Shown piece after piece: positions 6,722-9,397 of a stretch of 64,000 bases of DNA (position 1 is its first letter; every line of letters starts with the position of its first letter). This stretch comes from an uncultured bacterium. Lineage in GTDB: Bacteria > Cyanobacteriota > Vampirovibrionia > Gastranaerophilales > Gastranaerophilaceae. The DNA is taken from positions 62,001-126,000 of the forward strand of contig CAMTMK010000001.1 in NCBI GenBank assembly GCA_947073645.1, in the 5' to 3' direction. The translations under genes were made by a program, and so were the position numbers. The notes under the pieces were generated by a model, which had not been told where the DNA came from, did not search any database, and saw only the letters and a program-made list of their open reading frames with translations.

Positions 6722-7525
6722 ATGATAGACAAAACCGCAATTATCCACCCATCAGCAAAAATCGCTGAGGATGCAATTATAGGACCATATGTAGTTATAG
6801 GCGAAAACGTAACAATCGGAGCAAGAACAAGAGTGATCTCAAACGCTCATATTGAATTTGCCGAAATCGGTGAAGATTGTACAATATCTCCATTTGCAAC
6901 AATCGGTTCCGAACCTCAAGATTTGGGCTACAAAGGCGAACCTACAAAAGTTGTAATCGGTGACGGCACAATTATCAAAGAAAACGTAACTATTCACAGA
7001 GGTGCAGCTTGCGGTGATTTTACTACAAGAATTGGTAAAAAATGTTTATTAATGGTAGGTTCTCACGTTGCACACAACTGCGTACTTGATGATCAGGTAA
7101 TTCTTGCAAACCTTGTAACATTAGGCGGTCACGTTCATGTAGGTTTTGGCGCATTTGTCGGCGGAATGAGCGTATTCCACCAAAATATCAGAATAGGTGA
7201 TATGGCTATTATCAGCGGATTTTCAGCATCACGTCAAGATATTTTACCATACTCTAAAGGTGAAGGCAGACCTCCTGTTCCACGCGGACTTAACGTCATC
7301 GCAATGAAACGCAGAGGTGTTTCTCAAGAAGTCAGAACAGCTACTAATGAAGCCTTCAAATTGTTAATTTCTGATGAATACAATACTACTCAAGCTATTG
7401 AAAAAATTAAAGCAGAAATTCCAATGAATGAATATATTGAAAAAATGATTGAATTCATCCAAACATCAAAACGAGGAGTGCTTTTAAAATCTCATAAATC
7501 AGGACATGAATCATTAGAGGATTAG
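6722..7525 (+). CDS. lpxA: acyl-[ACP]--UDP-N-acetylglucosamine O-acyltransferase
   Basis: First enzyme of lipid A synthesis, putting a 3-hydroxyacyl chain on the 3-OH of UDP-GlcNAc. It shows about ten hexapeptide turns from residue 10 to about 180, the LpxA-specific GSEPQDLGYKGE stretch (62-73), and catalytic His118 in HVAHNC. The C-terminal helical domain carries RRGVSQE-like residues. The length of 267 aa is normal. Its own promoter is likely: TATACT/TATAAT boxes lie 30-55 bp upstream, with an AAGAGAG ribosome site. The next reading frame starts 3 bp after its stop. Confidence 0.96.
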   Translation: MIDKTAIIHPSAKIAEDAIIGPYVVIGENVTIGARTRVISNAHIEFAEIGEDCTISPFATIGSEPQDLGYKGEPTKVVIGDGTIIKENVTIHRGAACGDFTTRIGKKCLLMVGSHVAHNCVLDDQVILANLVTLGGHVHVGFGAFVGGMSVFHQNIRIGDMAIISGFSASRQDILPYSKGEGRPPVPRGLNVIAMKRRGVSQEVRTATNEAFKLLISDEYNTTQAIEKIKAEIPMNEYIEKMIEFIQTSKRGVLLKSHKSGHESLED

Positions 7526-7528
7526 GCA

Positions 7529-8247
7529 ATGTTTGTAAAAGCTAAAAACTGCCCCCCCCCCAAAAATCTAGCATTATAAAAGCATTTACACTTGCAGAAA
7601 TTTTAATTACATTGGGTGTAATCGGCATTGTTGCAGCGATAACTATGCCGACGTTAATCCAAAATCATAAGAAAAAAGTTGCTGTTACACAGTTAAAGGC
7701 AACATATTCAATCCTTTCACAGGCGTTAGAAACTTCAAAAAATGAAAATGGCGATATTGCAACATGGGATTTTGAATTAAACAATATTGATTTTGCAAAC
7801 AAATATGTTTTGCCTTATTTAAAAATTGCATCAACAAACAACTATTATTGGGCAGTAAAAGCTCGTATGCCAAACGGCGGTCAATATTTAGCCTGGCCTG
7901 CTAATGAAAATAAAATGAAAGAAAACCCAATATATATTCTACCGAACGGTTCTGCAATTATTATTGCGCATTTTCTTGATTTACGCATAGAAGCTGTCAT
8001 TGATATTAATGGACTTAAAGGACCAAATTTGCTAGGCATAGACGGTTTTGTTTTTTATTACAACCCAAATGAAAATAAATTAACTCCACTTGGCTATAAC
8101 TTAAAAAGAGATGAACTGCTCGGCGGAACAAACAGTGATTATTCTTGCTCAAAAACCTTAAATATCGGTAATTATTACCAAGGCTCCTGGTGCGCATCAG
8201 TTATTATGCAGGATGGCTGGGAAATTAAAGACGATTATCCATGGTAA
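7529..8247 (+). CDS. pseudopilin-like protein, interrupted at a 10-C tract (out of frame as read)
   Basis: The ATG at 7529 has an AGAGG site 8 bp upstream and begins 3 bp after lpxA. As written, translation passes ten consecutive C residues (7552-7561) and stops at 7577-7579 after 16 codons. One extra C would join it to the downstream frame. The result would have a short leader, then a type III signal (KAFTLAEILITLGVIG), a hydrophobic N-terminal helix, and a 200-aa secreted-type domain ending DGWEIKDDYPW. The downstream frame has no ATG near its start, which supports a single gene. The product would be processed by prepilin peptidase and belong to a type IV pilus or type II secretion-like fibre. 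It may be phase-variable or a sequencing artefact. Confidence 0.8.
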
Positions 8248-8290: not shown

Positions 8291-9397
8291 ATGCAAAAAA
8301 CAATTTGGGATAAATATGCCGAAGTTCTTGTTGACTATTCAACAAATGTACAAAAAGGCGATTTGGTACAAATAAGAGCAACAAGTATTTGTGCAAAAGA
8401 TTTAGTAAAAGCTGTTTACAAACGAGTAATCGAAAAGGGCGGGCATCCGATTATGAGAACTTCTTTTGAAGATTTTTCGGATATATTCATCAAATATGCT
8501 TCTGATGAACAATTGGATTACATCGACCCGATTATTGAACTTGAATACAAAACAATCGACAAGTTCATCTCAATCGGTGCTCCGATGAACACAAAAAATA
8601 TGGCACGCGCAGATTTGTCAAAACTATCTCGTCGCTCAAAAGCATCACAAGGTATGTCAAAAACACTTATGGAACGCTCTGCAAAAGGCGAAGCATCCTG
8701 GGTTGTAGCCGATGTTCCGACACATGCTTTAGCGCAGGAAGCTAAAATGTCTTATGACGAATATGCTGAATTCTTATTCAAATCCTGCTACTTAGATTTG
8801 GACGACCCTGTTGCAAAACTGAGAGAACTTGACGAAAAACAGACCAAATGGGCAAATTACTTGAACGGTATAAAAAAAGTTCGCATTGTCGGTGAAAAAA
8901 CAGATATTACATTTGGAGTTGAAGGCAGAAAATGGATTAGCTGTTCGGGCTTAAACAACTACCCTGACGGTGAAGTTTTCACATCTCCAGTTGAAGATGA
9001 CATTAACGGTGAAATCTACTTTGATTTCCCTCAAAACTACCGCGGAAACAGCGCAACAGGTGTTCACCTCTGGATTGAAAACGGACAGATTGTGAAGTTT
9101 GAAGCCGAAACAGGCAGAGATTATTTGGAAGCTATGTTCAATATGGATGAAGGCTCTCGCGGTATCGGCGAGATTGCAATCGGAACTAACGATGAAATCC
9201 AAGAAGTTACGGGAAATATTTTGTTTGACGAAAAAATCGGCGGTTCAATCCACATGGCAGTCGGTGCATCATATCCAGAAACTGGCGGAAAAAATGTATC
9301 AGGACTTCACTGGGACATGATTAAGAATATGAAAAACGGCGGAAAGATATATGCTGATGACATTTTAATCTACGAAAACGGTAAGTTTATAATTTAA
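8291..9397 (+). CDS. M29-family aminopeptidase
   Basis: A 368-aa metallo-aminopeptidase of the thermophilic AmpS/PepS (M29) family, cytosolic and used in peptide turnover. Family features include the N-terminal VNVQKGD-like segment (YSTNVQKGDLVQIRA), the central GEVFTSPVEDDINGE block, and the C-terminal block from RGIGEIAIGTN to GSIHMAVGASYPETGG. The latter carries the His and acidic residues expected to bind the two metals. An AGGAGG ribosome site precedes the ATG. It is a single gene whose 3' end lies right at the promoter of the small toxin-like element that follows. Confidence 0.93.
   Translation: MQKTIWDKYAEVLVDYSTNVQKGDLVQIRATSICAKDLVKAVYKRVIEKGGHPIMRTSFEDFSDIFIKYASDEQLDYIDPIIELEYKTIDKFISIGAPMNTKNMARADLSKLSRRSKASQGMSKTLMERSAKGEASWVVADVPTHALAQEAKMSYDEYAEFLFKSCYLDLDDPVAKLRELDEKQTKWANYLNGIKKVRIVGEKTDITFGVEGRKWISCSGLNNYPDGEVFTSPVEDDINGEIYFDFPQNYRGNSATGVHLWIENGQIVKFEAETGRDYLEAMFNMDEGSRGIGEIAIGTNDEIQEVTGNILFDEKIGGSIHMAVGASYPETGGKNVSGLHWDMIKNMKNGGKIYADDILIYENGKFII

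Follow-up and report, generated by a model that had tools for sequence, protein, structure and literature searches.

A C10 tract before a prepilin leader in an uncultured Gastranaerophilales bacterium: a probable phase-variation switch in a large pilin repertoire

The pilin gene and its neighbours

The window analysed here is a 64 kb stretch of DNA (33.7% GC) from an uncultured member of the Gastranaerophilales, an abundant and little-studied non-photosynthetic relative of the cyanobacteria found in animal guts. It contains a pilin gene that lies between lpxA and a gene for an M29 aminopeptidase (Table 1).

Table 1. Features of the pilin locus, in window coordinates
Feature	Position	Strand	Remarks	Evidence
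lpxA (UDP-GlcNAc acyltransferase)	6722..7525	+	5' neighbour	NCBIfam TIGR01852, 274 bits (cut-off 231); ORF list
Ribosome-binding site AGAGG	7516..7520	+	8 nt 5' of the ATG, within the 3' end of lpxA	sequence
ATG and initial codons (MFVKAKNC)	7529..7551	+	5' of the tract	sequence, translation
C10 tract	7552..7561	+	G10 on the minus strand; C8 or C11 opens the frame, C10 closes it	
Spacer	7562..7584	+	from tract to prepilin leader	comparison with G010 orthologue
TAA	7577..7579	+	ends the 16-residue product of the C10 frame	translation
Prepilin leader and pseudopilin body (KAFTLAEILITLG...IKDDYPW)	7579..8247	+		TIGR02532, PF20318, model
M29 aminopeptidase	8291..9397	+	3' neighbour	PF02073, 5.3e-89

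The product of the pilin gene has a class III prepilin leader and a hydrophobic N-terminal helix. It matches the prepilin N-terminal domain (TIGR02532) at 18.6 bits, above the NCBIfam cut-off of 16.3, and DUF6613 (PF20318) at 1.2e-7. The predicted structure (pLDDT 81) consists of a helix (5-57) followed by beta strands, and a fold search of this model against the PDB gave no match with an E-value below 0.6. The IKDDYPW motif also terminates most of the conserved relatives of this protein.

In a preliminary description of this DNA a run of ten C was considered striking in so AT-rich a sequence. The run is confirmed, and it is the single run of C or G of at least six bases in the window. For C runs of at least eight bases, shuffled sequences gave a mean of 0.20 matches compared with three overlapping matches observed. 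The reading frames are likewise as first described. Translation from the ATG at 7529 in the C10 frame yields the peptide MFVKAKNCPPPKNLAL, whereas with C8 or C11 it yields 238 or 239 amino acids and passes through KAFTLAEILITLG. The ribosome-binding site, which had been called perfect, is a good one that overlaps the end of lpxA.

Between lpxA and the peptidase gene, the pilin gene (window 7529-8247) is an additional gene. Thirty lpxA loci from the genus were read, and two of them have a pilin gene directly 3' of lpxA, those of the source genome and of the nearest species (G010). At about 18 other loci the distance from lpxA to the M29 gene is 70-300 nt and there is no pilin gene, and the remaining loci have no pilin leader close by.

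The preliminary description had pointed to related genomes and to other pseudopilin genes as places to look for the tract, and it is present in both. The syntenic pilin gene of G010 carries C10 too and is closed in the same frame; its spacer differs from that of the window gene in sequence and in length (32 nt, against 23 nt in the window gene), but the frame requirement is the same. The dN/dS ratio of the window pilin gene is 0.19 in a two-species comparison. As for pseudopilin genes in general, about 50 carry the tract in this genome, and dozens do so per genome across the genus.

Tracts in the genome and the genus

The 1.71 Mb genome contains 67 runs of C or G of at least seven bases, and all of these are 8 to 12 bases long (length 8 in four, 9 in nine, 10 in 42, 11 in ten and 12 in two). 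In a 386 kb sample, enriched for tracts, there are 66 runs of length 5, three of length 6, none of length 7 and 42 of length 10. The run lengths are thus bimodal, which shows that the tracts are a separate population and not the tail of a distribution. The stretches read in the source genome are those around tracts, three regions where polarity switches, and most of one contig; the tracts of G026 and other relatives were sampled in part, and the comparison of tracts uses one assembly per species.

About 53 of the 67 tracts are preceded by a start codon and followed by a prepilin leader. The tract-bearing genes are enriched in types related to surface structures, namely prepilins and glycosyltransferases. 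The genome has 76 matches to the N_methyl domain and a prepilin peptidase gene (PF06750, 1.5e-35). Most of the tract-free N_methyl genes that were read have a short plain start immediately before the leader.

Genomes of the genus have between 0 and 179 runs, and those from the order's other families have few; none was found in the viral contigs searched. The number of runs follows the number of pilin genes with a rho of 0.75 over 33 genomes, or 0.91 when G022 and G029 are left out. These two genomes have many pilins and few tracts, with plain starts in most of the genes read, and so the tract trait can be absent.

Tract length, frame and selection

The frame was analysed in four sets of loci, for the 124 pilin tracts whose start codon, picked by a simple score, was good. 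The length needed to open the leader frame is 11 (or 8) in 102 tracts, 10 in 19 and 9 in three. Length 11 is needed by 81 of the 91 tracts of length 10 (the other ten need 10 and none needs 9), by 10 of the 13 tracts of length 9 and by 9 of the 15 of length 11. As assembled, 20 of the 124 are in frame, where 28 would be expected if actual and needed length were independent. The needed length does not depend on the actual length, which argues that it is the tract that changes, the remainder of the frame being preserved. Since the commonest length is 10 and the length needed is mostly 11 (or 8), most copies are one base short and would rest in the OFF state.

The spacers and pilin bodies are under coding selection. 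Among 58 spacers of at least 30 nt, none has a stop in the leader frame, while 56 and 55 have stops in the other two frames. In codon-shuffled spacers the other two frames are closed nearly as often, and therefore the open leader frame alone counts as evidence of selection. The spacers of many orthologues are strongly divergent and yet keep the frame requirement. For pilin bodies that are closed in both species of a pair, dN/dS is about 0.09-0.28, with 0.63 for one poorly matched pair.

Tract length differs between some orthologues, compared with one genome per species, and within one set of near-identical paralogues. This set comprises three 5' ends in G022, which have C10 (L220), C10 (L221) and C12 (L105); two of these copies begin separate contigs.

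At seven loci (L045, L061, L090, L211, L235, L249 and L251) short repeats of two families occur between tract and leader. One family is about 55 nt long and includes GCGTAGCCGCTTGACCC, the other is about 105 nt long and includes a hairpin-like stretch. These repeats are in frame and add extra residues to the leader.

Orientation relative to replication

The C run is on the strand of the gene in 22 pilin genes and on the opposite strand in 31, and 52 neighbours show 29 changes. Regardless of the gene, the strand that carries the run is far more constant. It changes once in 45 neighbouring pairs in the source genome (shuffled mean 14), once in 39 in G010 (shuffled mean 19) and four times in 47 in G026 (shuffled mean 23). 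The C strand has a negative GC skew at 45 of 51 pilin loci in the source genome, at 36 of 50 tract loci in G010 and at 12 of 15 in G026, and the three polarity-switch regions read are all near turning points of the cumulative GC skew. The G10 is therefore on the G-rich strand whichever way the gene points. This strand is presumably the leading strand, an assignment made from skew rather than from a mapped origin.

The flanks of the tracts are also biased, with TG before the C run and GA after it. These shared flanks might have belonged to a mobile element, and this was rejected because two tract-free relatives have native codons at the position of the tract and no insert. At the GnT hotspot, G tracts of the leading strand are known to lengthen at the 3' end as T changes to G (Cherry 2023; PMC12344412). 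The tracts described here resemble this hotspot in being G tracts on what is presumably the leading strand, and such a bias could affect where tracts form. However, the hotspot is a mutational bias and not a switch, and alone it would hardly account for a C flank or for polarity that is nearly complete. T is rare (about 3%) after the G run and C is found in 91%, far more often than T to G bias alone predicts. Growth of the GnT type is a possible partial cause.

Switching at contingency tracts is already known, and it is the polarity locked to replication that is unusual in this system. Tentatively, an active process might both make and keep G10 at the 5' ends of a large set of pilin genes, always on the leading strand and whichever way the gene points. 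Nearly all copies would be one base short, and any one cell would show a few pilins drawn at random. Such a process may involve strand-specific slippage, extension of the GnT type, or a short template that is copied into the template of the lagging strand. The polarity makes it testable whether the direction of replication controls where contingency tracts form and how they mutate.

A proposed translational switch and its alternatives

We favour the hypothesis that the C10 tract acts as a switch for phase variation at the level of translation, and that the pilin repertoire has about 50 such switches, mostly OFF; we give it a probability of about 70%. As in contingency loci, the homopolymer is far beyond chance expectation, lies inside a coding region near the start, and by a gain or loss of units takes the gene from an open frame to a truncated one or back. 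Slippage at the run in living cells would change its length by one base, reversibly, and so bring the ribosome into or out of the frame of the prepilin leader. The tract would lie within the leader peptide that is removed by the prepilin peptidase. Cleavage of this kind would mean that a poly-Pro or poly-Gly stretch and a variable spacer cost the mature protein nothing, and hence that runs of either orientation are tolerated. Most copies would be OFF by default, and a changing subset of the pilins would be expressed, and probably displayed at the surface, by a minority of the cells. Loss of mismatch repair was rejected as the cause of slippage, as MutS1 is present in nearly all genomes; slippage should for the same reason be lower than in Campylobacter. 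If the hypothesis is correct, the pilin genes subject to phase variation would form one of the largest such sets of any bacterium. The literature searched yielded no paper on the subject for the Gastranaerophilales lineage.

The main rival is programmed recoding, in which the ribosome slips by -1 or RNA polymerase adds a base at C10/G10, to give constant low expression. We consider it unlikely as a full explanation, although it may contribute. One more base is needed in 81 of the 91 genes with length 10 and one fewer in none, and selection on bodies and spacers extends to genes that are closed in two species, both of which would fit a programmed shift. Such a mechanism predicts a fixed offset between actual and needed length. 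No constant offset was found over the 124 tracts, and the tracts of length 9 and 11 show that the needed length does not track the actual one. Recoding also leaves the polarity without an explanation. The pattern of needs at length 10 (81, 10 and 0) weighs against the switch hypothesis, since switching at random would be expected to leave a less uniform pattern; a possible reason is common descent.

Rather less probable is a combination in which the state of a gene is set mainly by slippage of the DNA, with leaky expression at length 10 through -1 slippage during translation or transcription. The lack of genes of length 10 that need 9 would then be explained, but no sign of leaky expression was seen in this analysis.

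In the preliminary description slipped-strand phase variation was proposed with a homopolymer sequencing error as its main alternative. The former remains the best-supported reading, as the tract is found in about 50 pilin genes and throughout the genus, and the latter is now unlikely for the same reason. An isolated error is rejected on the recurrence of 67 tracts in the genome. A systematic error, with a real length of 11 and all genes always in frame, is very improbable. Homopolymers are difficult to sequence, PCR slippage is known (PMC4965091) and contigs of relatives break at tracts. Length 10 nevertheless dominates in three genomes (42 of 67, 42 of 50 and 13 of 15 tracts), lengths of 8, 9, 11 and 12 are assembled in the same genomes, and G11 and G12 occur in other MAGs. 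Recurrence across pilin genes and the genus, together with the syntenic C10 of G010, makes plain assembly error unlikely. At L227:1234-1272 a scaffold gap (NNN) lies between two similar tract flanks, where the assembler broke inside the tract. Decay of closed copies into pseudogenes is disfavoured and highly improbable: most copies are closed as assembled and one (L041) has a short body, but internal stops are found in none of the 76 N_methyl matches, dN/dS is low and the spacers are open in the leader frame only.

Comparison with known systems

The pilC poly-G and the opa repeats of Neisseria are found in leader-coding regions. The tracts described here are similar in that the repeat falls within an N-terminal leader that is cleaved, here presumably, from a protein of the surface or pilus. 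The Neisseria examples involve one or few loci and Sec signal peptides, in contrast to about 50 prepilin leaders here. The phase-variable genes of Neisseria have been surveyed (PMC5953494). Contigs of relatives of the source genome terminate in tracts, and contigs are reported to end likewise in poly-G tracts in meningococci (PMC4235727).

Campylobacter jejuni has an AT-rich genome with dozens of C or G runs of 8-12 bases in surface genes, the major length being most commonly 10, as is the case here. Strain NCTC11168 has 29 poly-G/C contingency loci, and the lengths reported for Campylobacter tracts are G8 in 257, G9 in 214, G10 in 431, G11 in 77 and G12 in nine (PMC4965091). In C. jejuni it is the coding strand that carries the G run (27 of the 28 loci listed), and adjacent genes on opposite strands both carry G, whereas here polarity follows the replichore. 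The in-frame lengths of C. jejuni are mixed (8, 9, 10 and 11) and here they are mostly 11 or 8. Campylobacter lacks mismatch repair (PMC4235727), unlike the present genomes with their MutS.

Tracts in other positions

The tracts that do not precede a prepilin leader are mostly within other genes, usually near the 5' end, and these include glycosyltransferases. In two non-pilin genes the position of the tract is occupied by native codons in tract-free relatives. At L062 and L083, which are non-pilin genes, a C10/G10 tract is in frame at length 10 and relatives have ordinary codons. In more distant Gastranaerophilales (L160 and L162) a G11 tract is present about 160 nt upstream of a pilin leader, and these pilins have their own start codon and ribosome site just before the leader.
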